A stretch of 64,000 nucleotides of DNA from Laccaria trichodermophora (taxonomy: Eukaryota > Basidiomycota > Agaricomycetes > Agaricales > Hydnangiaceae): contig JACTVC010000008.1 in NCBI GenBank assembly GCA_018417955.1, positions 310,001 to 374,000 on the forward strand. The letters run 5' to 3'. Made by a program: the position numbers and the translations under genes. The notes below the pieces were generated by a model. It was not told the origin of the DNA and made no database searches. It worked only from the letters and a program-made list of their open reading frames with translations. Shown here one piece after another: positions 9,601 through 55,820 of the stretch (position 1 is the first letter of the stretch; each line of letters opens with the position of its first letter).

Positions 9601-11811
9601 CCACAATGCTGTAGGGTGGTAGTCTCAGCAATGAATATGTCATATACAAACACCACAAGAGACTGAAACTGAAACTGAGTACATAGAATTTTGCTTCTCC
9701 TCAGTATCTACATAACTCAATGATAGACATGTAAAAGAAACTATTAGTTGAGGAGATGTAGCAACCACTAAGAGGAATAGAGATGGTGAACAAGAAGAAA
9801 TAAAACAGATAAATACACATACAAAACTGGGCAGTTTGCAAAGAAATAGGCTCATTGTAATCTGGATAGCTGTGTCTCTCTCTATATATTTTGAACATGA
9901 ATATCGAGTAAGTGGTAACAGATAGAAAAAAAGCATACTCTCTAAAAATGGGAGAGTTGTATGACACCAAAGATTCTAATATGGTAGAAAATGGAGTTGA
10001 CTTGCCCACTATATATTGGAAATAAGTGACCTGGTTAAATAATGTGAAGAAGTACATACTTTCTAACAAAAAGAATGGTTGAAAGAGGAGCTGGAGTTGG
10101 AAATGGATCAAAGACATACAAGCTACAAAACATGAGCATTCTTCTATAATAAGAAATAAAAACATACAATCTGATTTAGAATAATCATATATTAGAGTGA
10201 TGGAAATGAGAGTGAATGGACAACCGACAATCTAAAAAAATGAAGTGAAGAGATGTTATAAAATTGGTCTATGGAATGCTTAAACTTGACTAACCTCCTT
10301 AAAAGATATTGATTGAAGATTGATTACCTGATAAAGAATAATGACTGAATAGATACAGATTGAAAAACAAAATGTACAAAATAAAACTTACAAGATATGC
10401 AGGAGAGACCACATACTTTCTTAAGAAAAGTAAGGAGAGATAGTGTGATAAGAGTAATTCATGGCCAAAAGCAAAGAAACTCACCTGCTAAAAAGAAGCA
10501 CCAAAATATGTGTTACCAGAAGGGTGTACATTAAAAACCAGGCCAACTCACCCTCTGAAACAAGACAGGCCACAGTCAGTGTCACCAGAAGAGTGCACAT
10601 TACAAACCAGGCCAACTCACCCACTGAAACAAGACAGGCCACAGTCAGTGTCACCAGAAGAGTGCACATTACAAACCAGGCCAACTCACATCCTGAAACA
10701 AGACAGGCCACAGTCAGTCTCACCAGAAGAGTGCACATTAAAAACCAGGCCAACTCACAAACTGAAACAAGACAGGCCACAGTCAGTGTCACCAGAAGAG
10801 TGCACATTAAAAACCAGGCCAACTCACCCCCTGAAACAAGACAGGCCACAGTCAGTGTCACCAGAAGAGTGCACATTAAAAACCAGGCCAACTCACCCTC
10901 TGAAACAAGACAGGCCACAGTCAGTGTCAACAGAAGAGTGCACATTAAAAACCAGGCCAACTCACATCCTGAAACAAGACAGGCCACAGTCAGTCTCACC
11001 AGAAGAGTGCATATCAACAACCAGACCAACTCACTTTCTATAAAAGAATGGCCAGAGCATGTGTTTTAGAAGTGTGCAAAATCAAATGGAGGAAAGCATA
11101 CTTTCTGAAATAGGGAACAGCACATCATAATCACCAGAACAGTGCACAAGAAAGGGAAAGGCCAGAGAATGAGTCAGCATATGAGTTAATAGTTAATAGA
11201 GGAACAACTCACAATCTAGCAAATGGTAGGTGTAGAAGAGAATTGAGTCAGAACATAGTTATTTCAGAAACTTAATAATAACTTACCCACTAAAGAAATC
11301 CCTTATATTCATACAGAGACAATGTAAATAGACCATATATCACCTTATAAATTCATAAACAAGAACATTAGCTGTACAAGTAGCAAGGTCAATGGTTAAT
11401 ACTTACTTCCTGAAAGAAACAGACAGCTGCTGATAAGATATGACATGTTAGGCAAAATATTGGCCCACATACTAATGACAACCATGAGAATAGATAAAAA
11501 CTTGAACAATTTATAGACATACATTCTGCAAGAGAAAACAACAATCAGAATAAATCTATTCTTCTCTTCATGATTGTTTTGTTCTTACTTCCTGTGCTTT
11601 ATCAATAGCAATAAAAATTTGTTATATTTTGGCTTACATTCTGTAAAACAAATCAATGTCTTATTATGATACCTTTTAGTTGCTGTTTGTCATCACATAC
11701 CTCCTATTGACCTTACAGATTAACTTGTGAGCAGCAATATGCCCCTGTTACTTACTGTCTGTTGGAATATCTCAATAAATTACTGAAGATATCTTTTTTA
11801 TAAACTCTTAC
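9600..11811 (-). other. Array of single-codon (3-nt) exons
   Basis: Read on the minus strand, the region repeats one pattern: pyrimidine-rich stretch, AG, three bases, GTRNGT-like donor, 45-71 nt, and again. Strict cases (codon, lower + coordinate): ACA 11756, GAG 11701, AAT 11638, GAA 11589, AAT 11523, TAT 11469, GAA 11407, TGG 11287, ATT 11213, AAA 11102, AAA 11035, GAT 10966, AGG 10897, GGG 10828, TTT 10759, GAT 10690, TGG 10621, AGG 10552, CAG 10485, AAA 10417, GAG 10295, ATT 10229, ATT 10168, CTT 10120, AAA 10060, TGG 10006 (GC donor), AGA 9939. Positions 11344, 11148 and 10357 have a donor and the right spacing but a mutated acceptor. Below 9930 similar sites have 2-, 4- or 6-nt gaps or a lost donor. 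No stop codon occurs among the 27. Exon 11812-11841 (IFQQVIDFCE) precedes the array. Splicing is inferred, not observed. Confidence 0.75.
10552..11037 (-). repeat. 69-bp tandem repeat: 66-nt intron plus one codon
   Basis: Seven full 69-bp units plus a final codon. Each 66-nt intron-like spacer (minus strand) runs from GTGAGTTGG to TTGTTTCAG, with a branch-point-like CTGAC about 21 nt before the AG. Two adjacent spacers are identical and five of the six others differ from consensus by one or two bases; the one nearest 11030 differs by several. The three bases between spacers are, in + order, CCT, CCA, ATC, AAA, CCC, CCT, ATC, TTT. The long frames readable through the tract (202 aa +, 182 aa -) follow from 69 being divisible by three. 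Confidence 0.9.
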
Positions 11812-13732
11812 CTCACAGAAATCAATGACTTGTTGAAATATCTTGATGAAATTGTTTATAATAATTGACCCTTGCAATGTCTTATACATGTTAAGAGATG
11901 ATAACCATATGAGAAAATTGCAATAACTGACCTGAAACAAAATCTTTCCATTCTTCACACAGTCTAACATCCCATATTTTTTTCTAGACCCCAAAATCTG
12001 CAGAGTATTATACCATGCTTTCCCCTGAAATGTCAGTAAGTTTTTAATGAGAGTTACCAAAGAGGTCATAATTGTTTCATCCACATTTGATCCTTGCTTC
12101 TGGAATCCCAAAAGAATATGGTGGGCCCAATTAATGGAAGCATACTCAACCACATCACCCTCAAAAAAGTCTTTTGAAGGATATTTTACAAGATGCTGCA
12201 AAGATAGTATGGCTAGATGAATGTGTTGCAGAGGAGGATTGATAAAATATTGCTTTGATCATGATTGGATGGTCAAAAAATCCCGGAGAGATGTGTGATA
12301 AAGCATAATTGGCTTATCATCATCTCCAGGAATTTTGATAATGGACTGTACTTGCAATAGCCCACAAATGACCTCCTCACACTGAAGAGAGAGGAGAGAG
12401 CTGAGAAAGGAAATGGATTTGTTCTCTGTCAGAACCATGATTGTTCCAAGAATCTGACAGAAGTCTTCTGTCCAAGAAGCAGAAGAGAGGACTTGTTCAT
12501 AGAGTGAATCTAGACCATTAGCTCCTGATGCCAGAAGTTTTTGCAAGGCCCTATGTGGTATGAGATCTCCACCAACACATTGGATCAATATAGTAGCAAA
12601 TGTGAATGAACTGCAAGCCTTGTTAAGAAGTGTAATGAGATCTTGAGCTGATGGCCAGGGCCTTGGGATCCTCCGCATGATTTGCCAATTTTCGTTATAG
12701 ATGCAATCAAATGCACTCCGAAAATGTACTTCAATGTCCCGACGAGCATCAAAATTCTCTAGCTCCAGACGATGCAAAAACCAAGAGTGAGAATTATCAA
12801 ACTTTTTTCGAATATGTTCCTCCACCCTGCTCGTGAGGAGAATTCGGAAAGGAAGACAAGTCCTCCCAGAAGAAGCCCTGAGCAGGACATCAATGAAGTC
12901 TGCCATCTCAGCTTTATCATCACATTCATCAAGAGCATCAATAACAACAACAGAGCTATAGGAGGTTCGTGAAGTGTTGAGATGGAGTGGGTCTATGATG
13001 AGCCTTTGAAGTCGATAGGCCATAGAGACAGTCAACCCGAGCAGGGCTGGCTCATCCTTAAGAGCATGTTCAATAAATGGCTTTGCACCAGGAACAGTGA
13101 GAGAGATCTGATGGGCAAGAGTAGGAATCAGGCGAGATATATGGCTGCGTTCACCAGCCCCTCGCAAAAAGAAGAAGCTCCCTAAGAGGCGGCCCTCCTC
13201 AGTATAGCGCTCCGCAATGGTCTGTGCCAATGCCGATTTGCCATAGCCAGCTGGTCCGTTAAGCCAACAGACAACAGCTCGCTCATCATTACCATGGCCA
13301 TCGAGCCACCACCGGATCTGAGCAATGACCTCCAAACGAGTCCCAGGGTCACATCGAGCGACGTGACCTGCGCGAGTGTGTGTAGCATTGCTGACAGGAC
13401 TAAGCAAGCTGGCTAGACCTACATGCCATCAATTATATGAGCAGTATTAATGGATTGTAAAACTTTGACGTACTTGGAACTGGCGGAGGGCCATGAAAAA
13501 CAACATCGCGGCCGGCGTTTATGAGCTGTGCTCTTCCGGATATGGTGGTTCCGATAGCGTTTTGCAGCTGTGCGGCTCTTGACGAATCCATGAGTGAAAT
13601 GACGTGTTGTAATATGGAGACTAGGAAAGTCGGAAGGCTAAAGACGTCGATAGGTCTCGTGGTCGTCGTAGTCGATGAAGAAGAGGTGATCTGTCGGAGA
13701 TCAGTTGTGAGAATTCGCTGTCGGGAATCCAA
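11812..13732 (-). CDS. NACHT-type NTPase (fungal NLR), with in-frame TGA
   Basis: Exon 1 13732-13474, intron 13473-13419 (GTACGT...TAG), exon 2 13418-11932, intron with GTCAGT donor, exon 3 11841-11812, then the single-codon array. Exon 2 shows Walker A GPAGYGKS (about 13257-13234) and Walker B VVVIDALDECDD (about 12950), followed by the usual NACHT helical region and LYHTSLRDFLT. Such STAND NTPases are signalling receptors that oligomerise on ligand sensing. TGA at 12261-12259 lies between TIQS and SKQYFINPPL; the frame stays open to GKILFQ at 11932, so one CGA-to-TGA change is the simplest explanation. No WD40, ankyrin or TPR repeats follow: the codon array sits where a ligand-sensing repeat domain would be expected. 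Whether the gene is active is unknown. Confidence 0.75.
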
Positions 13733-35179: not shown

Positions 35180-35430
35180 TCTTTCCAAAGCCATATCATT
35201 GTGATTTTCATTAGTTATCTAGCCAGTATCATTGGATATTTCATTAGGTACATGAGTGACATCATTTTGCAATTTTCAATGGTTACTTTGGCAATTTCAT
35301 TGGAAATTTCATAAGCTACTTGGGCAATATCATTGTGAGTTTCATAAATTATGTGGCCAGTATCATTGAAAATTTCATTAGCTGGTTGTGCAATATCATT
35401 GGCAATTTCATTAGCTACTTGGGCAATATC
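35180..35430 (+). repeat. 33-bp minisatellite, left arm part 1
   Basis: Units of the type 'gctacttgggcaatatcatt' plus 'ggcaatttcatta' alternate with a variant containing 'aattatgtggccagtatc'. It is cut at 35430 by the LTR element and resumes at 52348-52745; the inverted array is 55297-55820. Translation gives 11-residue repeats (IIGNFISYLGN), a hydrophobic pseudo-protein. Confidence 0.8.
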
Positions 35431-36290: not shown

Positions 36291-36560
36291 CACCTATACT
36301 CCCCTACAGCCCCCCACTTTTCCAGTGTGCGAATCTCAAGAATCAAGCCAGGGAGGATAGAGGCGAAGAGATCGTGCAGTGGAAAATTACAAGCCGTGAT
36401 CCTAAGTTGGTGTTAGAGTAGGTAGAGGTGGTGCCAGTTGGGTAGGAATGATGAGAGGTTGAAGGAAAGGGGGAGAGAAAAAAAAAAATGTTGTCATAAA
36501 TCTTGCCCCCCAGAGTGGACACAGGCCATGCAACACACAAGCAGCAATCTATAAGGTTAC

Positions 36561-36930
36561 TATGATTGAAGAAGAGTCCGCCGCATAATGTGCGAGCAGC
36601 AACTCCTCAACACTGATCCGCCGCAAAACATGTGAGCTGCAATCAGGAGCCAGAAGGTTACCATGATTGAAGAAGAGTCCGCCGCGTAATGCGCGAGCAG
36701 CAACTCCTCAACACTGATCCGCCACGTAACTCGCGAGCAGCAATCAGTACTTCTGAGGGACTCAGAAGGTTACCATGATTGAAGAAGAGTCTGCCGCATA
36801 ATGCGCGAGCTGCAACTCCTCCACACCGATCCGCCGCGAAATGCGCGAGCAGCAATCAGCCTTCTGAGAGAGCCAGAAGGTTACCATGACTGAAGAAGAG
36901 TCCGCCGTGTAATGCGCGAGCAGCAACTCT
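36561..36930. repeat. ~105-118 bp tandem repeat in LARD interior
   Basis: About 3.5 copies of a unit running from 'atgattgaagaagagtc' to 'cagaaggttacc', with CpG-rich cores (CCGCGTAATGCGCGAGC and variants) occurring twice per unit. Confidence 0.85.
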
Positions 36931-37337
36931 CAACCAGTTGAGGTGTCTCCCCTGCCCATAAGAGTCCTCCAATCAAGTCTTAACGCCCCAAATAGAGGGG
37001 AGATCCTGAGGTAGCCAAAAATGTGTTTGAGCATAGCGTAGTGATTTCTGGCCCGTTCCTGGAGATCAAATACCCGTTCGAAAGCTACGAACGACACCTT
37101 TCCAACGGTATAATTCGCGTATCGTGACGAGCCGTGGTCGTTGAGATAGAGAGGAAGTACCCAGAAACTGCAGTTCTGGAGTAAATGCATACTGCAGACC
37201 AGGCTGTTGTCCGTTATCAACGTAAATAGGTGCGTCGGAAAGGTACGAATCCAACGTCCAAAACGGGCTATAGAACGTCCGATGCGAGCGGGTTATGACA
37301 ATAGGAATGGGGAAATGGTTGTTGAAGAGATGGCACT

Positions 37338-38270
37338 GTAACACAAGGACCGCTCGTCCATTTGATGCGTATGAGGGCTTCCCAGAAGCGCATTGATTGT
37401 GGCTTCAAAACGAACCAAAGAACGAAAGAGGCGACCGAGATCTCGCCGAGAACGGACGAAATATGTTCATCTTGGTCATACCAGACTGAACTAGGCGAAG
37501 CGCCGCCAACAGGTGACCGTTTGGCGAGTTCAGGGAGTCCAAAGGAAGGTGTGGATCAGGGCTTTCCAACGCAAAAAAGATGAGAGCGATACGACCGTCA
37601 GTTGGCGAGATATGACATGAACAAGTCACATGCAAATGGTTGTTGGAGGGATGGTGCTGTGACACGAGAACCGCTTGTCCGTTTGACGCGTATGAGGGCT
37701 TCCCAGAAGCGCATTGACCGTGGCTTCAAAACAAGCCAAAGAACAAAAGGAACGACGAGGTTCTCGCCGAGAACGGACGAAATATGTTCATCTTGGTCAT
37801 ACCAGGCTGAAGTAGGTGAAGCGCAGCCAATACGCGACCGTTTGGCGAGTTCAGGGGGTCCAAAGAAAGGTGTAAATGAGGGCTTTCCAGCGCAAAAGAG
37901 ACGAGAGCAATCGGGGCGTCGGTCGGCGAGATATGACATGAACAAGTCACATGTAAGTGGTTGTTGGAGGGATGGTGCTGTAACACAGGAACCGCTCGTC
38001 CGTTTGACGCGTATGAGGGCTCCCCAGAAGCGCATTGACCGTGGCTTCAAAACGAGCCAAAGAACAAAAGGAACGACGAGGATCTCGCCGAGAACGGACG
38101 AGATATGTTCATTTTGGTCATACCAGGCTGAAGTAGGTGAAGCGCAGCCAATACGCGACCGTTTGGCGAGTTCATGGGGTCCAAAGAAAGGCATGAACGA
38201 GGGCTTCCCAGCGCAAAAGAGACGAGAGCAATCGGGGTGTCGGTTGGCGAGATATGATGTGAATAAGTCC
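37338..38270. repeat. ~320 bp tandem repeat in LARD interior
   Basis: Nearly three copies, starting at about 37338, 37658 and 37980, with landmarks 'accgct.gtccgtttgacgcg', 'ctcgccgagaacggacga' and 'gaccgtttggcgagttcag'. The 243- and 254-codon frames here follow from the repeats. Confidence 0.85.
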
Positions 38271-38968
38271 CATGTTGATGTCCCATCAACCCCATCCAAC
38301 CCAAAACCACTCCAAACCCTTCTAACCATTCAGAAACCAAGAGGAGCCATTCCAGGGAGTTCATAGAGAAGTAAGGAGGATGAGAATACTCATTCCTCAA
38401 GCAAGAAAACAGGAAGGATTGGGAGAGAAGCATAGTAGGGCATAGCACATAATTTCCAGAGCAGCAGACTGAACTGGAGGGATGTCAATGAACATCTGGC
38501 TGTTCTTGAGAGGCCTAGATGCTAAAAGACAAGGGAGATGGTTGAGGAACAGGTGGAGTCTGAGAGACAGTGAAGCAGCGCAAAGCAGCAGGCGACACTG
38601 GTTGCAGGCGACCTCCTCACCAAGTCAATGGCTGCGTAGTCGCGAAATCCAGACATAGGTGAGAGGAACTCTCCTCACAGTAGACTTCAGGCCGCGTAGT
38701 CGCGAAATCCCAAAGCCCAGCTGCTCAGAGTCAGCGCAGCACCCCAATCGAACAAACCTCAACCTGCTGTGCAAGCACAAGCTAAAGTCAATGGTTCATC
38801 CAACTGAAGGATGGATGAGCCCTTTCACATGAAGCAGTAAGCCCGCCGCGAAGAGCGCGAGCAGCAGCTACCATCCATGCTAAGGTTCCTCCTGTGATGA
38901 GCTGGCGCATTCCCACAACTCTCCAGCTCTCCCTCTACCAAGAAATGCAGACTTCAACCATGCTTTGG

Positions 38969-43317: not shown

Positions 43318-46300
43318 TTAGGCGGGTAGTCCATTAGCCTCGAGGTATTCTCGTCTAAGTTGGGGGGAGTTCCTGAGGTCGTATTCCGAGATCCAGGAGT
43401 CGTCGGCAGGCCCGTATCCCTTCCATCTAATTAGGTACATTCTTCGATTACCCTTCTTCTTGCCAGTCAATCGATGACCTATTATTGCTTCTACTTCGTA
43501 TTCCTCAGAAGCCTTGAGATCACGAGTCGAAGGTAATTCGGTTCGTTCGCCAAATTCGCCCGGCGAAGGATTGTACTTCTTTAGATGGTCTATGTTGAAT
43601 ACGGGGTGCATCGAGTATGTATCAGGCAATCTTAGACGATAGACTTGAGGGTTAATCCTCTCGATGACTTCGAAGGGCCCAATCATTCTCTGTACTAACT
43701 TCTTGCCGGTTCCTTCCACATCGACTAATTCCAAGGAATGCGGGTTGACGAGGGCGTAATCGCCCACCCTCAAGGGTTGAATAGGCCTACGTTTCTTGTC
43801 ATGCGCTTTCGCTTGTCGGTCTTGAGCCAAGGCGATAGCATCCTTGGCGTAGTTACGATGAATCTCCAAAGATTCGACGAAATCTTCGGCGGATAGGCTG
43901 GGCAGGAAGGGTCTCCGAGATGGGTCCACTTCAGGTACTATAGCGCTGGTAGAGATTCTAGGGTTGTATCCCATTAGAAGGAAGTTGGGGGAGTATTTAG
44001 TGGAGGAATGCACGCTGCTATTGTAAGAATAGGCTAAGATGCTTAACCAATTCGACCATTTCTCCTTATCGGAGGAAACATAAGCGCGTAGCATCTGTTC
44101 TATCATGGCGTTGAGTACTTCAGTTTGCCCATCCGTTTGCGGGTGATGAGCTGAAGATAGAGCCATGACGCTGCCGTAGTTGGCGACCACTGACTTCCAG
44201 AATACTGTGGCCCAACGTCTGTCTCGATCCGATATGATGACCTCTGGTAAACCGTATATGTTGACTACTTTCTCCACGAATAGTTTAGCAAAGCCTTCCT
44301 GAGTCAGAGTGGTGTGCGTAGGAATCATGATGGCAAACTTAGTAAGTTTGTCCACTATGACAAGTATGGCGGTGAAGCCCTCCTCTCCGGAGGTTGGTAG
44401 GCCCGTTATCATATCCAAAGAAACCGTGGCGAAGGGTCTGAGTGGTATATGCGCGGGTCTTAACGCGCCCATCTTAGCCCGATGGTCTATTTTGATTTTT
44501 TGGCAAACATCGCAGGTGATAGCGTACGCTTCTGCGTCCTTGTTCATAGAGGGCCAAAAGAAAAGCTCTTGTAATCGCGCTATGAAGCGGCGAGGGCCAG
44601 CGTGGGCGCTTTCGTACGGCGACTCGTGTATCCACCGCAATACGTAGTTGATTTTAGATTTAGGGACGCATAGTCGAGTTTTCCATCCTGCATCTATGAA
44701 ATACAACAATCCGTCCTGGCCTTTCTGGAAATGACTAGCTGAGACTATTGTCTTTTCGTTGGGCTGAATTTCCAGATATCGCGGGGCGAAGAAACTATCC
44801 GTTTCGTATCCTTCCGCAAATTCCTTACAGACGTTAGGATCGACGGATATCAGAAGTTGCGTCCGACTAGCCCATTCGTCTTCCGGGGTAGAGTCCGAAG
44901 GTTTAATTCCAGCGGGGTATGTCCAGGGGTCCGCCTTAGGAAACGGTAGAATGACCCCTTGTTCACTTGAGACGGTTTCAGGTTCCTTTGCCTTGACTTC
45001 GGTCTCTATAGGCTCTGAGGCTTCGCGCTTCTGTTCAGCAGCGAGCTGTCGTCTGGTGCGTACCGTGGCCGACATTTTATCTACAACGTCTTCCCACCAC
45101 ATAACACAGAAAGCGGCTCTAGGAGCGGCAGCTCTGAAGATTCTATCTTCCACTTTCTGAGCAATGTTACGTTTTGCGTCATCTTGTTCGATGGGAACAT
45201 TATCGTCATCCAACGGGGAATCATGTGGAGGAATTCGTATGAGCCGAGATAGAGGGTCAACATTAGAATGTATTCGTCCTGCTCTATGAACTATCCTGAG
45301 GCCGGGATATGCAGCGAATACCGCCCCCCAGGCCGCTAAGCGTCTATTGGCGTTTTCGTAGACTCGCGCCCATACAAGGGCGGCGTGGTCCGTGATCAGA
45401 GTGATGCTCTCCCCTTCGATGAAGGGTTGAAACTTGACAAGGGCCTCCTTCGCGGCCAGTGCTTCTCTCTCGGTCGCGCTGTAATTGCGCTCGGCTGATT
45501 TGAACGTTCTGCTCCAGTAGGCAATTACGCGTTCCACATGAACGACCGTCTCGTCGAGCGTCGCCCCCCACTCATCTCGTTGTTCCACTTCATGCTGGTC
45601 CTTATGAAGTTTAGCAACTAGATTAGGCACGTCCTTGTTGTCATTCCACGCGGATTCTAGTCTGGTGTAGCAAGGGGTACCTTTGAGGTCCTTGACTAGT
45701 ATGGTTTGTACTTGCTGCAAGCTGGCGCCTAACGCAAAGTCCGAAGCGTCAGTGTACAACCTGTAAGCTTGACCTGCGATCGGGTGCCCAAGCACGGGCG
45801 CATTAGCCAAGGCTTCTTTAGCTTGCTGGTAGGCCACTTCTTGTTCCGCGCGCCATTGCCACTTGACTCCTTTCTTCAAAAGGTCAAACAGCGGTGCTGC
45901 GATCATGGAATAGAAGGGTATGTATGTAGAAAAGTATACGACCATTCCTAGGAACTTCTGGAGGTCGCTGGTGGAGGTAGGCCGGGCTAGGTCCATTATG
46001 GCTTGCACTTTTTCCTTGTGCGTAGACAGACCCAACCTAGACACTTTCTGTCCAAGTAGTAAAATGGATGAGTATCCGACATAGCATTTGGCGGGAGACA
46101 AGGTTATCCCAGCTGCCGCAATGGCGCTTAGGACTTTGTCCAGGTGAACGAGATGCTCAGTCCAGTTCTTCGAATATACCACTATATCGTCGATGTAGAC
46201 CAGAGCAAACAACCATAGGAACGGAGCTAGTATGCCTTGCATGACCCTTTGGAAAATCGAGGGCCCGTTCCTGAGCCCAAATGGCATTCTCTTAAACTGC

Positions 46301-49300
46301 CATAGACCTAGATGACAACGGAACGCCGTCTTCTCCTTGGCGTCTTCAGCCATTTCAAGTTGGGTAAAACCTGCTAGCGCATCGAATGACGAAAGAACTT
46401 GGGATCCGGACAACGCCTGAATGATCTCGGATTGCCGCGGAATAGGGAATTCATCGGGAATAGTCCTAGCGTTCAGTTTACGGTAGTCGATAACTAGTCG
46501 AGGTTTGCCATTCCTATAGACCACTAAGGCGGGAAAACCCCACGGGCTCACGGATGGTTCTATAACTTCGGCTTCAAACCAAGTCTTCATCTGCTGATCG
46601 ATTACTTCTCTTTTCGCCGGAGAAGTCCCATACATGGGTTCTGAAATTGGTTGTGTATTAGGTAGCAGCGGGATTTGTACTCGCGCTTCTATGTGTCCCA
46701 GACGTCCGTTCACGCCGAAAGCGGAGGCGTTTTTGCGCAATACCTCGGCTAAGCGACCTCTGTACTCCTCGGGGATGTCTGGTCCTAGGTTAACTAATTG
46801 ATCTACATCCCCGCTCACGGGGTCTTCGGGTACCGCGGTGGTCTTTGGCCCCCAAGACTCATTTTCCTCAAATCGATCATCATGTCCCGGAGAATCAGCG
46901 GTCGAGTTCGTGGCAGAAGCTAAGTCTTGTGCTTTCAAAGTACCGATTATCGTCTTCCGAAGAGCTTCTGCCGAGGCTACCATCCTATTTAGATGGTCTT
47001 CACTTTTGGGCTTATCTATCATGATCTCGGGGTCGTGAAGATAACCTACGACTTCCCCCGCTCGCACATATCGAGGATGGGCACTGGGGTTAGCAATAGG
47101 AATGAAGGGACAGGAGGCGCTAACCCAAGTGGTAGGAGCAGCCATGATGTTCTGATCGTCTGTCCCAATTATAACCTTTTCTACTATCCAATCTTCGCGA
47201 CCTTCAAACATTGCGTGGACAGCTACATTGCAGACACTATTCGGGTGTATCAAGGTGTCATCCAGGGCTACGACTTCCATAAGTTTAGTCGCACTGATCT
47301 TAGGTTTGGAGCGAACTACGGCCTTTCTCCGGACAAACGATTGGGTAGTGTAGGCAGCTCGAATTTCGAACCCTAAGTCGACGTTCTCCGAGGAGGCAGC
47401 GAGTATCACGCGCCCCGAACGTCCTACTGCCACTTCACAATGTCCCGAGGCGTATCTGGTCAGGCCGAGCTCATAGGTAGTCTGGAAATCTTCCCCCAGT
47501 AGGAGAGGCACGTTCATGTTGCGCACGACATAAGCTTCTAACTCGAAGCTAACGATCGATTCGTCTCGAGCAAGGACGAATAGCTCAGTCTTAATATACC
47601 CTAAGACCTTGGCACCTCCCGTGAGTTGATATAATTTCATTCTTAAACCTTCGCGCAGACGGGGAGGATTAGGCATGGACTTCCAGAATTCCTCCGAGAT
47701 GAGAGTGATATCAGCTCCTGAGTCCAATCGAGCGCGGATGGATTCTGATTCCAGGCTTCCAATTTTCGCTGGCGTGTGTAAGGCTCTGGTTCCTAGAGAA
47801 CCCATCCCTTCGGGTAAGGAACGACCCTTGACCGCCGGGAATACTCGACCAGGTTCATATATACGTACAGGCTTTTTTGACTTAACGGGAGCTGGTTTAA
47901 CTGTTCCTTGGACGATTTCGTTGTCTTTATTCTTCCCTTTATTGTAGTCCTTAGTTTTGTGTGAATTACGATGGGCAGGGTACACCTTGTGGAACTTCGC
48001 GTCCGTCCTTCGCTCATCGTTAATTTCCCTATCGCGCGGTTCAGCAGCGATTTCAACGCGCTTTTCCGCAGCGAAAGAATTTCTGTAACACCCTTTAGAC
48101 GAGTGAATTTCAGTTGCGTAAACTTTAAGCATTCGTTCACTCTCATAAGCGGAAAGGGTGGTGTTGGATTCAGCCAACATGACTAGGTACTCTCTGTCTG
48201 CTTCTTCCTCTTCGTCCCATACTATATGAATCTTATGGACATTTCGTAAAGCGTTCCATTTACCATAGTGAGGGCAATCCCTGTGGAAATGCTTAGGGCT
48301 AGTACAGATATAACAATCCCCATTGGGTTCTCGTGGGCTCGCTTTGGAGTCGTCTCTTTCGAAAGTTATACCGTTAATCGTTTTGCCGTGAGGAAACTCC
48401 TGTCTGGCCGGCGCAGGTTTATGCCCCCCAGAGCGCGGCGGTGGTCGACGATTGTTATTGGATGCGAAGTTGATGTCGCGTTCCAATTCTCCTTCCTCAT
48501 CGGATAGGTAGGACTCTAATTGAATCCCCTGATTGAGGGGCTCAGTCTCCGCTGCGTGTGCTGCGCGCGGACGGCTGTTCCTATAGAACGGCGCAGGTCG
48601 TTTATTGCGTTCGGCCTGCTGCCAAGATGTTATGAGTCCGTTCTTCATTCGTTTAGCTACGGACTGAACCGACAATATCGTAGGACAAATGATCTCACTA
48701 AGATAGTGAGACCATTCTACAGGTTGACGACGAAGTATGCGCGCAACTGCCGTAGGTCCATCGACTTCGTCGGGATGTAGGAAATGGTGATAGCGGATGC
48801 GGCGTTGGACATATTCTAACGGACTTTCTTGCTCGTGACCCTTATTACGGAAGGTCATTTCATCGAATTCGAAGGTTCTGTCTCGAACCCATTCTTCGTC
48901 CAGGAAATGAGCTTGAATTCCAACCATCATGTTGTCCCAGTTCGCTGAGAAGTAGTTACGATCTGGCTCTGGTAAGGTCTCCCACCAACTTAGAGCATAG
49001 GAGGTCCATTTAAAAGGGGCTAATTGGGCGATTCCTTCCTTCATCTTGGGACTCAATCCGGCGAGAAATCCCATATTGCTTAGATAACTGATAGCAGTCT
49101 CGCCTGCTCCGTTCCATTCAGGCAACACCGCGCTATTGAGCTTGCGGTTTAACTGCCATTCCTCGGGAATACGCCACCATGGAGGAATATTGGGGTCTTG
49201 AGAACCGGGGTTTCCACCGTTCCCGCCACCGCCTCCTCCTCCTCCACTTCCGCCTCCATTACCGTCGTTTCCCCCATTGTCCGGTGGGGGAACGTACCAG

Positions 49301-51216
49301 GAGGCTGGTGGAGTCGGTCCATTAGGACCATTGGGGTTACCACCTCCTCCAGCGTTACCATTGCTGCTTGAGGAAGAGGATCCTCCAGAGGGGGAATCAG
49401 GACTGTTTCCATTATTGTTGGACGGTTGACCCGGTCTGGTCTGATGCCGATTGCTTCTACTCCGAAAGGTATAGCTGGTCCAGGACGTAGGGCTGGGTAT
49501 GCGCGAACTGAACGCAGCAGGAGCCCGAACCTGGTTGTGGTTACTACCAGAGGCTGCCGTCGTGGGACCATTATTCGAGGTTCCTGTCTTGACCGAAGAA
49601 GTGCCAACGGCGGAAACCCCGATCGAGCCTACGCCTGGCAGCCTGGATACTGGGTGCCTTTTAGTTAACAAAACGGATATGGATCCAGGCACAGGGGGGT
49701 CCGATGCGAACCTGACGTTCTGACCTTCATATGCAGCGGAATTTCGCGCAAGGTCGTTTCTGGCGGTAGGCGAGGTGGAGGAGAATCTCGTCGCGAGCCT
49801 TTCAGTCCTATCGAGCTGTCGGCTTTCGTGAACACGATGTCTGGTGAATTCCACGGGAATGGGACCATCCTTGTAGGCTCGTTTGCGCAAATATGCAGCA
49901 ATCTCTTTCAAGTCGTCCGGGAGCTTATCGTAGTAATCTGATCGAGCCAGCAATTGACCGACTTTGGTCCTAGCGGACCCGTTGCCGAAGATTGACCTTA
50001 ACGATGCTCTAGTGGATTCGTAGGAACTGACGGACATTTGGTCCCCAGTTCTATACATCCGCATAAGAGCGTTGATTTCTTGCGCTAGGTGTTTGGCGGC
50101 TACGGTCGTTCGGTGCTGCAGGACACGATAAGTAGCCAGTATTTCCGTTCGGCTCGAATGGGATGCTAGCATTCGTAAGAAAAGGAAATCGTAATCGAGA
50201 ACGAAACGATCTCGATCCCTCTTATTGAAGAAGCCGGCGAGGACTTGTAGCACCTGATCCACGGTTGATACCACTTGCGAGACTTCTAGTAGCAAGGAGC
50301 GTTCCACTCCATAGACGATTTCAAAGCCCGTATATCTAAGGAGATCTTTCTTGCTGATTTCGTACGAAGCGAATTTCTCAACCGCTGAGCCTAGGTCGTC
50401 CCATCGGCAGTCCCCAGGGGTCTTGTATACTAGCTCAATGGCGCTCCTTAGTTGGTCACATTCGTATTTTGATCGACCAGGTAGAACTCCGTCTATAGCG
50501 CCTAACGGGACTAGCAGGTCCTCGTCGGCAGCTGGATCGAATGCACCGAACATGCGGGCGGATGTACGTGTAATGGGCTCAGCCCACACAGGCAGCTCCT
50601 TGTAGGGCTCAATGTCCCAGAAGATCGTATTGAATTCAGACGTGTTTCCATGATCCTCTGGCGTAGTTTCGTTTTCATCGCCCTCCGTTTGGCTAGACGC
50701 GGAAGTCTGGGATCCATTTTGGGCCTTTGAATGCTGTATGGCAGCTTGCAGGTTTTGTAGATCCTTAGCTAGGGCTGGATCGTTTCGAGAAGATCCTTCC
50801 CGAACCCAGGCAGCGTTCCTACTCGCGCCAAAGTTCGAGGGCTTACGCGTTCCCTTATTCTGGGTGTCTTGTCGAGGGTTGCTCGCGCTCCTAGGAGCAG
50901 CGGGCGGATTGGAGGCAGGCTTGCTCACCTTCGGTAGTCGGCTCGCGCTTGAAGAAGCTGCGGGAATCGAAGAGGGTCCTTCCTTGACCGAGTTGTCCGG
51001 GGTGTGTGGACCCGTGAGGACGGGCCCGGAGGAAGGCATCGGATTGTGGAGTGTAGGGGATAACGCTTCAGGGTCTGGTTCTTCCGTCATGGACACACCC
51101 TTTCCCTTCTTCCTAGTAGTCAGCGGGGCGACAAGGTCTCGACTGGCCGAGTTGTTGGTGTTGCGAGGTTTGTTTTTAGCGAGGTCCTCTCCAGCAGAGG
51201 GGATCGGTGTACTCAT
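43318..51216 (-). CDS. Chromovirus Gag-Pol polyprotein
   Basis: Start chosen at MSTPIPSAGEDLAKN (51216), the first Met after the LTR; 2632 aa. In order: Ser/Pro-rich gag N-terminus, gag core with WWETLPEPDRNYFS (about 48990), zinc knuckle CYICTSPKHFHRDC (CX2CX4HX4C, about 48310-48270), aspartic protease RLDSGADITLIS (about 47730), reverse transcriptase with YIDD at 46186-46197, RNase H with LYTDAS (about 45750) and TDHAA, integrase with a HX..H..CDVC finger (about 44620-44500) and DDE residues in SLDMITG, SDRDRRW and QTEVLNAMIEQ, and a C-terminal chromodomain (YLIRWKGYGPADDSWISEYD, about 43440-43380). All domains are in one frame. Function: copy-and-paste retrotransposition, with the chromodomain directing integration to marked chromatin. 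Confidence 0.95.
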   Translation of the reverse strand: MSTPIPSAGEDLAKNKPRNTNNSASRDLVAPLTTRKKGKGVSMTEEPDPEALSPTLHNPMPSSGPVLTGPHTPDNSVKEGPSSIPAASSSASRLPKVSKPASNPPAAPRSASNPRQDTQNKGTRKPSNFGASRNAAWVREGSSRNDPALAKDLQNLQAAIQHSKAQNGSQTSASSQTEGDENETTPEDHGNTSEFNTIFWDIEPYKELPVWAEPITRTSARMFGAFDPAADEDLLVPLGAIDGVLPGRSKYECDQLRSAIELVYKTPGDCRWDDLGSAVEKFASYEISKKDLLRYTGFEIVYGVERSLLLEVSQVVSTVDQVLQVLAGFFNKRDRDRFVLDYDFLFLRMLASHSSRTEILATYRVLQHRTTVAAKHLAQEINALMRMYRTGDQMSVSSYESTRASLRSIFGNGSARTKVGQLLARSDYYDKLPDDLKEIAAYLRKRAYKDGPIPVEFTRHRVHESRQLDRTERLATRFSSTSPTARNDLARNSAAYEGQNVRFASDPPVPGSISVLLTKRHPVSRLPGVGSIGVSAVGTSSVKTGTSNNGPTTAASGSNHNQVRAPAAFSSRIPSPTSWTSYTFRSRSNRHQTRPGQPSNNNGNSPDSPSGGSSSSSSNGNAGGGGNPNGPNGPTPPASWYVPPPDNGGNDGNGGGSGGGGGGGGNGGNPGSQDPNIPPWWRIPEEWQLNRKLNSAVLPEWNGAGETAISYLSNMGFLAGLSPKMKEGIAQLAPFKWTSYALSWWETLPEPDRNYFSANWDNMMVGIQAHFLDEEWVRDRTFEFDEMTFRNKGHEQESPLEYVQRRIRYHHFLHPDEVDGPTAVARILRRQPVEWSHYLSEIICPTILSVQSVAKRMKNGLITSWQQAERNKRPAPFYRNSRPRAAHAAETEPLNQGIQLESYLSDEEGELERDINFASNNNRRPPPRSGGHKPAPARQEFPHGKTINGITFERDDSKASPREPNGDCYICTSPKHFHRDCPHYGKWNALRNVHKIHIVWDEEEEADREYLVMLAESNTTLSAYESERMLKVYATEIHSSKGCYRNSFAAEKRVEIAAEPRDREINDERRTDAKFHKVYPAHRNSHKTKDYNKGKNKDNEIVQGTVKPAPVKSKKPVRIYEPGRVFPAVKGRSLPEGMGSLGTRALHTPAKIGSLESESIRARLDSGADITLISEEFWKSMPNPPRLREGLRMKLYQLTGGAKVLGYIKTELFVLARDESIVSFELEAYVVRNMNVPLLLGEDFQTTYELGLTRYASGHCEVAVGRSGRVILAASSENVDLGFEIRAAYTTQSFVRRKAVVRSKPKISATKLMEVVALDDTLIHPNSVCNVAVHAMFEGREDWIVEKVIIGTDDQNIMAAPTTWVSASCPFIPIANPSAHPRYVRAGEVVGYLHDPEIMIDKPKSEDHLNRMVASAEALRKTIIGTLKAQDLASATNSTADSPGHDDRFEENESWGPKTTAVPEDPVSGDVDQLVNLGPDIPEEYRGRLAEVLRKNASAFGVNGRLGHIEARVQIPLLPNTQPISEPMYGTSPAKREVIDQQMKTWFEAEVIEPSVSPWGFPALVVYRNGKPRLVIDYRKLNARTIPDEFPIPRQSEIIQALSGSQVLSSFDALAGFTQLEMAEDAKEKTAFRCHLGLWQFKRMPFGLRNGPSIFQRVMQGILAPFLWLFALVYIDDIVVYSKNWTEHLVHLDKVLSAIAAAGITLSPAKCYVGYSSILLLGQKVSRLGLSTHKEKVQAIMDLARPTSTSDLQKFLGMVVYFSTYIPFYSMIAAPLFDLLKKGVKWQWRAEQEVAYQQAKEALANAPVLGHPIAGQAYRLYTDASDFALGASLQQVQTILVKDLKGTPCYTRLESAWNDNKDVPNLVAKLHKDQHEVEQRDEWGATLDETVVHVERVIAYWSRTFKSAERNYSATEREALAAKEALVKFQPFIEGESITLITDHAALVWARVYENANRRLAAWGAVFAAYPGLRIVHRAGRIHSNVDPLSRLIRIPPHDSPLDDDNVPIEQDDAKRNIAQKVEDRIFRAAAPRAAFCVMWWEDVVDKMSATVRTRRQLAAEQKREASEPIETEVKAKEPETVSSEQGVILPFPKADPWTYPAGIKPSDSTPEDEWASRTQLLISVDPNVCKEFAEGYETDSFFAPRYLEIQPNEKTIVSASHFQKGQDGLLYFIDAGWKTRLCVPKSKINYVLRWIHESPYESAHAGPRRFIARLQELFFWPSMNKDAEAYAITCDVCQKIKIDHRAKMGALRPAHIPLRPFATVSLDMITGLPTSGEEGFTAILVIVDKLTKFAIMIPTHTTLTQEGFAKLFVEKVVNIYGLPEVIISDRDRRWATVFWKSVVANYGSVMALSSAHHPQTDGQTEVLNAMIEQMLRAYVSSDKEKWSNWLSILAYSYNSSVHSSTKYSPNFLLMGYNPRISTSAIVPEVDPSRRPFLPSLSAEDFVESLEIHRNYAKDAIALAQDRQAKAHDKKRRPIQPLRVGDYALVNPHSLELVDVEGTGKKLVQRMIGPFEVIERINPQVYRLRLPDTYSMHPVFNIDHLKKYNPSPGEFGERTELPSTRDLKASEEYEVEAIIGHRLTGKKKGNRRMYLIRWKGYGPADDSWISEYDLRNSPQLRREYLEANGLPA

Positions 51217-51808
51217 GGAAGAGAATGATAGGTCGATTCGCTGGCAGCCTCCTGGTTTAAAAGGAGGAGGTAGATGGTCTGGGCGTAGACAGGGTACAGG
51301 TTGCCCTGGAGTGGCGATCAACAGGGTTGGAGAGACCAAGGAACTGACACTGTCAGGGTCCAGAATAGGGAGGGCACTCGCACAGCAGCAGCGGGCATAG
51401 CTCAAGTCGTTGGGGAGAGTAGTAGGATTCTTGATTGTCTCATAACGTTTGACAGCAGCGGGTAACCGCGCTAGCGTGGAGCTAGATGAGGAGGTTACAA
51501 GAGTATTGGATGACGAAGTTCGATCGTCTGAAGTTCCGGATGAGAATTCCTCGAAAGCAGCGGAGATTCGCGCTAACGTGGAATGAGGAGGTTCAGGCGG
51601 GGCTCCTTCGTCTTCCAAAGTCGTAGGAGTGGAGGACGACAAAGTTGGGGGAATCGAGTTTTCGAGCTGAAGGTTCTCGGTAGCAGCGAGAGATCGCGCT
51701 GCCGAGGGCCTGGAGCTTTTAGTCGTGACCTCTTCGTCATTCGAGGGGTCTGAGAAGGTAGTTTTGTGAGAATTCTCCGTGCCGATGCACTTACGGACTT
51801 CATCTTGA

Positions 51809-51832
51809 TGAAGTCCGCGGTGCCCCCACCAT
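51809..51832 (-). promoter_or_regulatory. Chromovirus primer-binding region
   Basis: Immediately inside the 5' LTR; identical to 38969-38992. Core GGTGGGGGCACCGCGG on the minus strand. Confidence 0.65.
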
Positions 51833-52199
51833 TGTGAAACCGAGTGTTCGTCCGTGGCTTCTCGACGAAGTCGCGCGCTCTTGATGGCAGCGGAGAATAT
51901 ACGAGGCACGTGTGATAGAGATCGAGTCGAGCTAGCGTGATGCGACTTCACGCTAGCGCGTTCCAGTAACCCAGGAAGGGGGACGTTGTCACCCGACGCC
52001 GGGCTCTGGTATCCCGGAGGGGAGGCGTTAGGCTGCCTGGCCTTAAGAGAAGAGGGTGACTCAATCCACATTATGTATATAGTGGTTATCAAGTAAGGTC
52101 CAAGACTACGGTACACAACTATATACAACGAAAAGCTAACAAGAATAAACAATGCTCCGATGTCATGTAAAGGTACTAGGATGCTAAACCGCCGTTACA
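51833..52199 (-). repeat. Chromovirus 5' LTR
   Basis: Same 367 bp as the 3' LTR. The gag-pol frame stays open back into this LTR (to 52152), but the first plausible gag Met is at 51216. Confidence 0.95.
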
Positions 52200-52347
52200 C
52201 TACATGTAGTGCAAGAGGATGGCAAGACTGCTGACAAGGTGGTGGTTCAAGACAAAAGATCAATATATTATGTAAGATATCCAAATCTAGCTATATACCA
52301 CTGTTTGACTATGGCCTCTGGGCATTCCCTTCCAATCCTATATCACA

Positions 52348-52745
52348 ATATCATTGCGCTTTTCATAACTTATCTGGCCAGCATCATTGGCAATTTCATT
52401 GACTACTTGGGCAATATCATTGTGATTTTCATAAATTATGTGGCCAGTATCATTGGAAATTTCATTAGCTGGTTGTACAATATCATTGGCAATTTCATTA
52501 ACTACTTGGGCAATATCATTGCGCTTTTCATAAATTATCTGGCCAATATCATTGGCAATTTCATTGACTACTTGGGCAATATCATTGCGATTTTCATAAA
52601 TTATGTGGCCAGTATCATTGGAAATTTCATTAGCTGGTTGTGCAATTTCATTAGCTACTTGGGCAATATTATTGGCAATTTCATTAGCTCCTTTAGCAAT
52701 ATCATTGGAAATTTCATTAGCTACTTGGCCAATATTATTGGCAAT
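52348..52745 (+). repeat. 33-bp minisatellite, left arm part 2
   Basis: Continuation of the array at 35180-35430 after the nested LTR elements. The 182-codon frame at 52209-52754 starts in LTR sequence and runs through this array, so it is not evidence for a gene. Confidence 0.8.
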
Positions 52746-53039
52746 TTTGAGTAATCAGGAGAGTGGTCACATGACCAAACTCCAAAAGGGGTCAAATAAC
52801 CAAAGTTGTAGCCCTGCACTATAGCTTCCCAAATCTGTTTGAATTATGTTCTGAAGTGCTCCTGTTGTGGAGATATGAGGTAAAGGAATTTCAAAAGTGT
52901 CGTGTTTTTTTTTTTGTTTTTTGTGTTTTTCTCCATGAAAACAAAACCAAATAACATGATTTCAGTATATTCAGAAAGCTAAAAGAAAGGGCTACAATTA
53001 ATGTATCATGGGAAAAATGACCAAAAAAGGAAGGTGCAT

Positions 53040-53745
53040 GCCCTACTATAAGAGTCAGATATAGATTTACTGATAGACTACAAAAAAGTCAGACTTAGAC
53101 CACACAGTTTACTGATACCCTATAAAAAACTACAAAAGTCAGACTTAGACTCTAAAGTTTGCTGATAGACTACAAAAGACTACAAAAGTTGAACTTAGAC
53201 TACAAAGTTTACTAATAGACTACAAAAGACTATCAAATTTACTGATAGACTACAAAAAAGTCAGACTTAGACTACAAAGTTTACTCATAGACTATAAAAG
53301 ACTACAAAAGTCAGACTTAGACTACAAAAGGTTGGATTTAGACTACAAAGTTAGAGTTAAGGTCAAAAGGTTATCTTGACTACAGAGTTTGTAGTGTCCA
53401 CTTTTTGTCATTAGAAAAGTTGTGTAGTGACTGCTTTTTGAGACTACAAAAGTTTGTAATGTGTGCTTTTTGATTAGAAAAGTTTGTAGTGACCGCTTTT
53501 TGAGACTACAAAAGTTTGTAGTGTGCGCTTTTTGATTAGAAAAGTTTGTAGTGTCCACTTTTTGAAACTACAAAAGTTTGTAGTGTGCGCTTTTTCATTA
53601 AAAAAGTTTGTAGTGTCTGCTTTTTTTGTCATTAGAAAGGTTTGTAGCATCTGCTTTTTCATTAGAAAAGTTGGTAGTGTCTGCTTTTTGAGACTACAGA
53701 TCTTGTGGTGTGTGTCTTTTAATTGGAAGAGTTTGTCTTTCACAC
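53040..53745 (+). repeat. 'gtagtct/gactac' minisatellites, left arm
   Basis: 53040-53350 repeats a unit built on 'agacttagactacaaagttt'. 53390-53745 repeats a unit built on 'aaaagtttgtagtg' plus 'gctttttgagactacaaaa'. The matching right-arm region is 54115-55010, which has more copies of the second unit, so the arms have changed in copy number since duplication. Confidence 0.8.
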
Positions 53746-54114
53746 TGTCCCAAACATAGTCAGGTTTGATACAGCTCTTTAAGGGCTATAGGATGATGGG
53801 TTGATTCATCCTTGGAGGTGTCTTTAAGTCAGGTCATATTGTAAATTGACTATGTATTGAGTAGGTATCAACATGAATAGCCTCCTCTAGCTTGAGAGCC
53901 AACTTGGGCATGATGTGAGAGACTGATGATGTGGCAATAGCAATATGTAAAGTCATGTCAATCATTCAGCCATATCCTTACATTAGGTATCAATATGAAA
54001 GGCTTTTCCCAATGTGAAAGACAACTTGTGAATGATGCCAAAACTAATGCTGCAGCACTGGCATATGATGACAGTCCTTCAACCTCATCCCCATAACACA
54101 GATCGAGACACCAT

Positions 54115-55010
54115 AAACTACAGGTCAACTACAAACTTTTTTAAGTGAAAAAGTAGACACTACAAACTCTTCCAATTAAAAGGCACACACCACAAGATCT
54201 ATAGTCTCAAAGAGCAGACACTACCAACTTCTCAATGAAAAAGCAGATGCTACAAACCTTTCTAATGACAAAAAAAGTGGACACTACAAACTTTTTTAAT
54301 GAAAAAGCGCACACTACAAACTTTTGTAGTCTCAAAAAGCGGTCACTACAAACTTTTCTAATGAAAAAGCACACACTACAAACTTTTGTAGTCTCAAAAA
54401 GCGGTCACTACAAACTTTTCTAATGAAAAAGCACACATTACAAACTTTTGTAGTCTCAAAAAGCGGTCACTACAAACTTTTCTAATGAAAAAGCACACAT
54501 TACAAACTTTTGTAGTCTCAAAAAGCGGTCACTACAAACTTTTCTAATGAAAAAGCACACACTACAAACTTTTGTAGTCTCAAAAAGCAGTCACTACAAA
54601 CTTTTCTAATGAAAAAGTGGACACTACACAACTTTTCTAATGACAAAAAGTGGACACTACAAACTCTGTAGTCAAGATAACCTTTTGACCTTAACTCTAA
54701 CTTTGTAGTCTAAATCCAACCTTTTGTAGTCTAAGTCTGACTTTTGTAGTCTTTTATAGTCTATGAGTAAACTTTGTAGTCTAAGTCTGACTTTTTTGTA
54801 GTCTATCAGTAAATTTGATAGTCTTTTGTAGTCTATTAGTAAACTTTGTAGTCTAAGTTCAACTTTTGTAGTCTTTTGTAGTCTATCAGCAAACTTTAGA
54901 GTCTAAGTCTGACTTTTGTAGTCTTTTATAGGGTATCAGTAAACTGTGTGGTCTAAGTCTGACTTTTTTGTAGTCTATCAGTAAATCTATATCTGACTCT
55001 TATAGTAGGG
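54115..55010 (-). repeat. 'gtagtct/gactac' minisatellites, right arm
   Basis: Inverted and expanded counterpart of 53040-53745. The second unit ('cactacaaacttttctaatg' plus 'aaaaagcacacactacaaac') occurs about nine times against about five in the left arm. Confidence 0.8.
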
Positions 55011-55296
55011 CATGCACCTTCCTTTTTTGGTTATTTTCCCACAATACATTAATTGTAGCCCTTTCTTTTAGCTTTCTGAATATACTGAAATCATGTTATT
55101 TGGTTTTGTTTTCATGGAGAAAAACACAAAAAACAAAAACAAAAAACACAACACTTTTGAAATTCCTTTACCTCATATCTCCACAACAGGAGCACTTCAG
55201 AACATAATTCAAACAGATTTGGGAAGCTATAGTGCAGGGCTACAACTTTGGTTATTTGACCCCTTTTGGAGTTTGGTCATGTGACCACTCTCCTAA

Positions 55297-55820
55297 TTAC
55301 TCAAAATTGCCAATAATATTGGCCAAGTAGCTGATGAAATTTCCAATGATATTGCTAAAGGAGCTAATGAAATTGCCAATAATATTGCCCAAGTAGCTAA
55401 TGAAAATTGCAATGATATTGCCCAAGTAGCTAATGAAAATCGCAATGATGTCACCCAAGTAGCTAATGAAATTGTACAACCAGCTAATGAAATTTCCAAT
55501 GATACTGGCCACATAATTTATGAAAATCACAATGATATTGCCCAAGTAGTCAATGAAATTGCCAATGATGCTGGCCAGATAAGTTATGAAAAGCGCAATG
55601 ATATTGCCCAAGTAGCTAATGAAATTGCCAATGATATTGCACAACCAGCTAATGAAATTTTCAATGATACTGGCCACATAATTTATGAAACTCACAATGA
55701 TATTGCCCAAGTAGCTTATGAAATTTCCAATGAAATTGCCAAAGTAACCATTGAAAATTGCAAAATGATGTCACTCATGTACCTAATGAAATATCCAATG
55801 ATACTGGCTAGATAACTAAT
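55297..55820 (-). repeat. 33-bp minisatellite, right arm
   Basis: Inverted counterpart of the left-arm array, uninterrupted, giving the mirrored 137-codon frame. Includes the empty site GATAT at 55600-55604. Confidence 0.8.

Follow-up and report, generated by a model that had tools for sequence, protein, structure and literature searches.

A 64,000-nt stretch of the Laccaria trichodermophora genome (contig JACTVC010000008.1, positions 310,001 to 374,000; hereafter the window) carries, on its minus strand and downstream of a NACHT exon, a series of putative short introns separated by candidate exons of one codon each. The gene is of the fungal NACHT type that resembles NOD-like receptors (NLRs; signal transduction ATPases with numerous domains, STAND), since its NACHT domain lies above the curated Pfam cut-off (38.0 versus 26.7 bits over 12262-13380, where NPHP3_N scores 88 bits; the related locus L007 scores 41.9 bits for NACHT and 86.7 bits for NPHP3_N). 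Considered together with relatives elsewhere in the genome, the sequence makes it highly probable that the array is a spliced, coding and hypervariable receptor tail, which gains one residue per exon and grows by unit duplication under diversifying selection.

Inspection of the minus strand from 11758 down to 9939 locates every one of the 27 sites listed in a preliminary description of this DNA, each with an AG acceptor, three bases and a GT donor, or GC in the single case of TGG at 10008-10006. As that description held, none of the 27 triplets is a stop codon. Its spacing of 45-71 nt is correct for 23 of the 26 introns and fails for three, which measure 117, 108 and 119 nt. The 117-nt intron covers the place of an extra one-codon exon that is present in 12 of 13 aligned paralogs and is missing from the window because its AG acceptor has been lost. 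At 10552-10968, seven units form part of a tandem repeat of 69 nt; its introns are near-identical, and variation from copy to copy falls on the three bases between CAG and GTGAGT. A scan of shuffled sequence had been suggested as a check, and the runs are not reproduced by chance: the longest chain of sites (YAG-NNN-G[TC]RNG, spaced by 44-80 nt) comprises 10 sites within 9901-11900, against at most two in 1000 dinucleotide shuffles of that interval. Forty shuffles of the whole window likewise gave no chain longer than two, and the longest chain on either strand of the remaining window is one. Chance occurrence in AT-rich DNA is thereby ruled out.

The same layout recurs among paralogs, where the NACHT open reading frame ends in phase 0 (...LFQ) and is followed by a short exon, about twelve one-codon exons, the variable array and a cap. 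The conserved flanking exons read T E N E N F K. W. K before the array and K.. I L K W R after it. Across 13 aligned paralogs that share the intron family of the window (family A; L014, L046, L053, L058 and L067 were left out), splice dinucleotides are intact at each cap place in 11 to 13 sequences. On the N-terminal side, T is kept in 12 of 13 and E and W in all 13, with F/Y/L/W, K/E and other residues at the remaining places; on the C-terminal side, I, L and W are invariant. The codons GAG, TGG, ATT, CTT and TGG are themselves each identical in 13/13. The cap introns are mutually unlike (0/55 pairs alike in L039). Each unit of the array pairs a single codon with an intron of roughly 60-69 nt, whose ends are in most cases a GTGAGT donor and an acceptor like TTTCAG. 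The GTGAGT donor is found in 257 of 303 array introns, counted only where units lie no more than 85 nt apart; the branch-site consensus CTRAY occurs in only 136 of the 303, and no claim is based on it.

The genome, of 59 Mb in 77 contigs, holds at least 79 NACHT matches at E ≤ 0.001. The best protein match comes from Laccaria amethystina, and so do all those that carry an organism name among the 120 matches listed. The pattern TTTCAG-NNN-GTGAGTTGG is present in 220 copies and GTGAGTTGGCCTGG in 200, compared with none for either reversed pattern. Among the 100 of the 200 GTGAGTTGGCCTGG places that were listed, all fall into seven clusters, and 7/7 clusters lie downstream of a NACHT match on the same strand. 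A second intron of 72 nt (family B) builds the same kind of array; its start, GTGTGTGCTTTCATCCTCC, has 49 copies and no reversed copy, with 48 on C30, C48 and C49 downstream of NACHT matches. Three of its copies stand at C30:44983-46412, downstream of the C30 NACHT match, and the one on C24, at position 409860, lies away from NACHT matches. The two families are no more alike than expected by chance (322 of 2000 shuffles reach the same score), whereas the 66-nt intron of L014 is related to family A (0 of 2000).

Homogeneous arrays were found in 10 of 31 NACHT flanks taken by NACHT place (in sets of nine, ten and twelve), a rate that is biased, as the first nine were picked by likeness or nearness to the window gene. 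Twenty flanks had none, and one (L015) has a one-codon run with unlike introns. In all, 18 array loci were studied, some of them chosen through the intron patterns (the window, L009-L014, the C12 locus, L038-L041, L046, L052-L054, L058 and L067). Each of the 18 has a NACHT match upstream on the same strand and short introns alternating with one-codon exons; for L046, L052-L054, L058 and L067 the NACHT exon is outside the stretch and the link is by place. Counted units range from 4 (L041) to 80 (L038) and at least 85 in L067, a lower bound, as its array is still running at the start of the stretch examined. With caps included, the relatives have about 25 to 100 one-codon exons per gene. In the family-B array of L067 (12-6423), 69 of the 85 counted exons encode L, D or N; seven further units with weaker donors (TTG, TTG, AAT, TTG, AAT, TTG, TTG) were left out of the count. 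The NACHT gene of L015 (1900-3620 on the reverse strand of the locus) has a tail of some 25 one-codon exons with introns that look unlike by eye. Its W exons with GC donors recur, and one triplet in the chain would be TAA, so that this chain is tentative; the locus may show the state that precedes array expansion.

That the triplets are coding exons is indicated first by their stop codons. None of the 407 triplets of 17 arrays (L058 uncounted) is a stop, compared with a mean of 31.8 and a minimum of 16 in 20000 trials of independent column shuffles. The absence is confined to phase 0: in a set of 16 arrays, stops number 0/322 in phase 0, 18/306 in phase 1 and 39/306 in phase 2. The pattern is not due to avoidance of a second acceptor: the triplets AAG, CAG and GAG add up to 49, yet there is no TAG where 18.3 would be expected. 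When exon lengths of 0-20 nt were allowed, all 237 family-A sites and 82 of 83 family-B sites gave 3 nt; the single 1-nt case, at L067:6351, is taken as a CGT codon shortened by the shortest-match pattern. Loose calling gave 248 triplets with two stops, both in L038 and both nested matches 4 nt inside GCA units. They were removed by requiring a distance of 45 nt or more between a loose site and any accepted one, which leaves 246 triplets and also removes AG-ACT-GTGGCC look-alikes in L038 introns and nested AG-TAA-GT matches in donors. Array limits of L014 and L046 were set by hand, with one L046 unit read as GAA and not as the overlapping TGG. The earlier claim of phase-0 one-codon exons downstream of a NACHT gene thus agrees with the sequence and is not a product of chance.

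Base composition within the triplet points to splicing as well. G closes 54% of the triplets, T 34% and A 12%, while C does so in 1 of 322; at third positions of five NACHT reading frames the shares of G, T, A and C are 20%, 39%, 21% and 19%. That is to say, the last base of the triplet acts like an exon-final base. Because of this bias many amino acids use a single codon, namely GAT for D (41/41), AAT for N (25/25), GCA for A (17/17) and GGG for G (15/15). L046, of family B, has mostly the same codon set as family A. A shared codon set in the second family points to splicing as the cause of the bias, although L067 departs from it in a few codons (GGT, GCT, CGT and ATT once each and CCT twice).

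Variation within the unit is concentrated in the codon. In nine arrays, each with eight or more units of its commonest length, array-mean diversity is 0.62-0.70 per site in the triplet versus 0.018-0.18 in the intron, and single triplet sites range from 0.44 to 0.74; L067 is similar, with triplet sites at 0.53-0.71 and an intron mean of 0.168. All nine show the pattern of fungal NLR repeats with high internal conservation, in which near-identical units differ at a few hypervariable positions. Where two units have introns identical to the letter (175 pairs), the codon differs in 133 cases, always nonsynonymously; a single base is changed in 24 of these and two or three bases in 109. The pairs are non-independent and come mostly from L009, L011, L012 and L046. 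As intron sequence is wholly different between families, a fixed sequence is unnecessary, and the likeness within an array therefore suggests recent turnover. Codons that stay unlike through such turnover favor diversifying selection, as in the high-internal-conservation repeats, although a local mutator could also be a source of codon diversity.

Taken together, these properties suggest that the C-terminal and probably ligand-sensing part of the NACHT protein is encoded one amino acid per exon. Gain and loss of units as DNA repeats would shift tail length by whole residues and keep the frame, with turnover keeping introns alike and diversifying selection keeping codons different; the evolvable peptide proposed earlier is in line with these whole-codon steps. 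Conserved one-codon caps would connect the tail at one end with the NACHT part and at the other with the C terminus. Because the introns are so short, each would probably be recognized alone and removed in turn, in gene order, so that a new donor comes to stand behind an already joined exon. Every skipped exon would change the product by whole residues, and some skipping may yield isoforms. The predicted product would carry, behind its NACHT part, a tail of about 24 to 100 residues or more at the place where WD40, TPR or ANK repeats usually stand, the position that had been proposed for the array from the outset and that the sequence bears out. A sensing role is suggested by the position of the tail, its variability and the known activity of NACHT proteins.

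Compatible with this explanation is a somatic or stochastic repertoire, where combinatorial skipping of exons would be the main use of the array and each gene would yield many tails, as in Dscam. We consider this a real possibility, somewhat short of an even chance. Splice sites within an array are much alike (as the GTGAGT counts indicate), any subset of exons remains in frame, and alternative splicing of codon-sized microexons has been reported in Tuber. Strong, similar sites could equally give faithful stepwise splicing, and germline variation among the paralogs is already very large. More tentative again is a joint proposal that introns serve as a recombination substrate by which residues are added, dropped or swapped and that stochastic skipping then creates an in-frame repertoire in each individual, a mushroom counterpart of adaptive receptor repertoires. 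On this proposal the arrays would have arisen by two or more expansions in this genome, starting from introns with no detectable likeness to each other.

Gain of introns in the manner of introners, with one mobile intron copied into successive codon boundaries of an ordinary coding sequence, would account for near-identical introns separating unlike codons and for two intron families. It is nonetheless unlikely, given that paralogs with similar ends differ in their number of codons, from 4 to at least 85, and that a word of several units has been duplicated together with its introns in L012, where the four-codon word RIED is present in three copies that differ at 3, 4 and 6 positions of 277 nt. 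No basis is known for insertion at each codon boundary and nowhere else, and a protein search with the joined cap sequence returned no relative that holds the same residues in an uninterrupted exon. Very improbable is a non-coding minisatellite in a large intron or 3' untranslated part, for which the AG-NNN-GT appearance would be a by-product of repetition. The 69-nt tandem repeat exists, and in L007/L012 the unspliced NACHT frame does continue, ending at the first one-codon exon (SSNRQ, then a stop), but such a repeat does not account for the lack of stops where 31.8 were expected, for a triplet that is the most variable portion of the unit, or for caps kept in 13 paralogs, a constant length of 3 nt and unalike introns with a common layout. 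An unspliced reading of the 69-nt unit as a hydrophobic 23-residue repeat can hardly be credited, even though one sense frame is free of stops in the window, L009 and L011, because stops in all three unspliced frames of 13 of 16 arrays and of L067 rule out read-through, 51 of 303 array introns are not a multiple of three in length, an open frame would tolerate stop triplets and yet none occur, and the cap introns are unalike.

Several observations weigh against the spliced, coding tail. To the stop-free unspliced frames of those three arrays are added frames with only one to three stops in L053, L010, L013 and L041, all a consequence of the many units whose length is divisible by three. The protein search with the joined cap sequence gave nine candidates and none at E ≤ 10, a result expected given how gene callers work. 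Single intron sites reach a diversity of 0.71, and intron sites match the least variable triplet site once in L012, once in L052 and three times in L053. The weakest case for codon change is L012, where only 10 of 30 pairs with identical introns differ, as whole blocks are duplicated there. Tests for hydrophobicity periodicity in eight array peptides reached 0.05 or less in 4 of 48 cases (L038 at 3.6, L011 at 3.5 and 3.6, L053 at 4.0), which gives no clear fold signal and is not used as evidence. The protein of the window could have another C-terminal end, because an acceptor 4 nt beyond the one considered below would keep another frame open. Finally, the NACHT frame is short or broken in 6 of 14 family-A loci, the window included. 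Arrays comprise 17, 6, 24, 35, 23, 27, 80 and 27 units where that frame exceeds 500 aa and 7, 6, 24, 8, 4 and 5 units where it is shorter; longer arrays thus accompany longer frames (p = 0.023 over the 14 loci, in a single post hoc test), with L010 (6 units) and L039 (24 units) as exceptions.

Among known systems, schistosome micro-exon genes and the alternative exons of Dscam can be swapped or skipped in frame. The one-codon units described here could likewise be exchanged or skipped in frame. The exons of those systems are longer, and neither system is known to include single codons set in runs of near-identical introns. Repeat units of the WD40, TPR and ANK type span some 30-42 residues. 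Fungal NLRs bear such repeats with high internal conservation, for example het-d and het-e of Podospora (PMC12222747), and the fraction of high-internal-conservation repeats reaches 58% in Laccaria bicolor (PMC4986451). Like these, the arrays form a C-terminal repeat of a NACHT protein that is homogenized save for hypervariable sites. In contrast to the het-d/het-e type, where the unit is a protein repeat, the unit here is an intron, and a single codon per unit would be translated.

The preliminary description held that no such system had been described. This must be withdrawn, as the nank (NACHT-ANK) family of Tuber melanosporum is reported to owe its diversification to alternatively spliced microexons of codon size (3 bp), described as multiple or as tens (Iotti et al. 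2012, doi 10.1016/j.funbio.2011.11.009, via PMC4986451, PMC3689799 and PMC10197012); one-codon exons in NACHT genes were therefore already known. In both cases the fungus is ectomycorrhizal and its NACHT genes have tens of 3-nt exons, recognized here by sequence alone, whereas alternative splicing is reported in the truffle. The truffle is an ascomycete and Laccaria a basidiomycete; nank proteins have ankyrin repeats, and none was found here in the NACHT reading frame upstream of the array. The passages that treat nank in those papers are silent on homogenized tandem introns with hypervariable codons. In the literature searched, which leaves most subscription journals outside, we found no report of such arrays in Laccaria or another basidiomycete, nor of homogenized tandem introns around hypervariable codons, two intron families or arrays of 80 or more units.

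If splicing is confirmed, the spliceosome would handle some 25 to 100 successive 3-nt exons in one transcript, which would make these genes a test of intron definition and order. NLR diversity would then arise from a repeat that is translated only at its variable letters, with a clean split between homogenized and diversified sites. Codon-sized microexons would be a recurrent device of ectomycorrhizal NLRs in the truffle and Laccaria lineages and no truffle oddity, and the absence of such gene ends from annotations would be explained.

The window gene itself can be followed along the minus strand. Its putative first exon (13474..13591) begins with an ATG at 13591, reads MDSSRAAQLQNAIGTT... and ends in phase 1 at a donor that was located together with the ATG; the putative intron 13473-13419 has GT...AG ends and yields a start similar to that of L. 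amethystina proteins such as P0001. The NACHT/NPHP3_N exon, identified with Pfam (11932..13418), has a 3' end that aligns with 10 paralogs and closes with ...KILFQ in phase 0; it contains an in-frame TGA (12259..12261) where L007/L012 has an arginine (FLAIQSRSKQYF) and reads on. No WD40, TPR or ANK repeat was scored in the NACHT reading frame of L007 or in the two window pieces. For the exon that follows, previously given as 30 nt (11812-11841), the phase-0 end stands and the length is probably 69 nt (11812..11880, TLQGSIIINNFIKIFQQVIDFCE, phase 0 to 0), the 30 nt being its 3' part. The longer form is suggested by the paralog alignment and by the L. amethystina model P0050, which reads LFQ-TSQGSIVTRNFIMLLEQIIDFCE-T.

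The first one-codon exon of the N-terminal cap is ACA (T, 11756..11758), identical in 12 of 13 paralogs with splice dinucleotides in 13/13. Exons 2-11, all within 11035..11703, follow with first bases GAG 11703, AAT 11640, GAA 11591, AAT 11525, TAT 11471, GAA 11409, TGG 11289, ATT 11215, AAA 11104 and AAA 11037; here GAG and TGG are the codons identical in all 13, and no exon has its splice dinucleotides in fewer than 12 of the 13 paralogs. The lost exon, eighth of the cap, corresponds to AAG at 11346-11344, preceded by AT (11348-11347) where 12 of 13 paralogs have AG (11344..11348). The variable array (10552..10968) comprises seven units of 69 nt with the codons GAT AGG GGG TTT GAT TGG AGG (D R G F D W R). 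On its 3' side stand CAG 10487, AAA 10419 and GAG 10297 (10295..10487); the AAA place is aligned in 13 paralogs with splice dinucleotides in 12, and the GAG place is visible in the alignment. The C-terminal cap (9939..10231) consists of ATT 10231, ATT 10170, CTT 10122, AAA 10062, TGG 10008 (with the GC donor) and AGA 9941, of which the second ATT, CTT and TGG are those identical in 13/13. A probable terminal exon (9852..9881) would encode RETQLSRLQ and a TGA stop (9854-9852) if the acceptor right before 9881 is used. With its in-frame TGA and lost AG acceptor, the window copy is probably a decayed member of the family, so the relatives carry the case; its array of seven units is short. A nested AG-TAA-GT at 11752-11754 overlaps the donor of the first one-codon exon and is kept in 13/13 aligned paralogs. 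A shift to this acceptor would splice in a stop, and the feature may be a mere GTAAGTA donor.

Elsewhere in the window, an open frame of 2944 aa on the minus strand (43318-52152) resembles by eye a Ty3/gypsy-type retrotransposon polyprotein with a chromodomain-like end. A large imperfect palindrome at 52346-55763 has arms at 53011-53439 and 54612-55040 (99%) and at 52354-52747 and 55370-55763 (90%), with 33-nt and 62-nt tandem repeats inside. Further tandem repeats occupy 35189-35430 (33-nt units resembling those of the palindrome), 36553-36934 (112-nt units) and 37313-38274 (3 x 321 nt).

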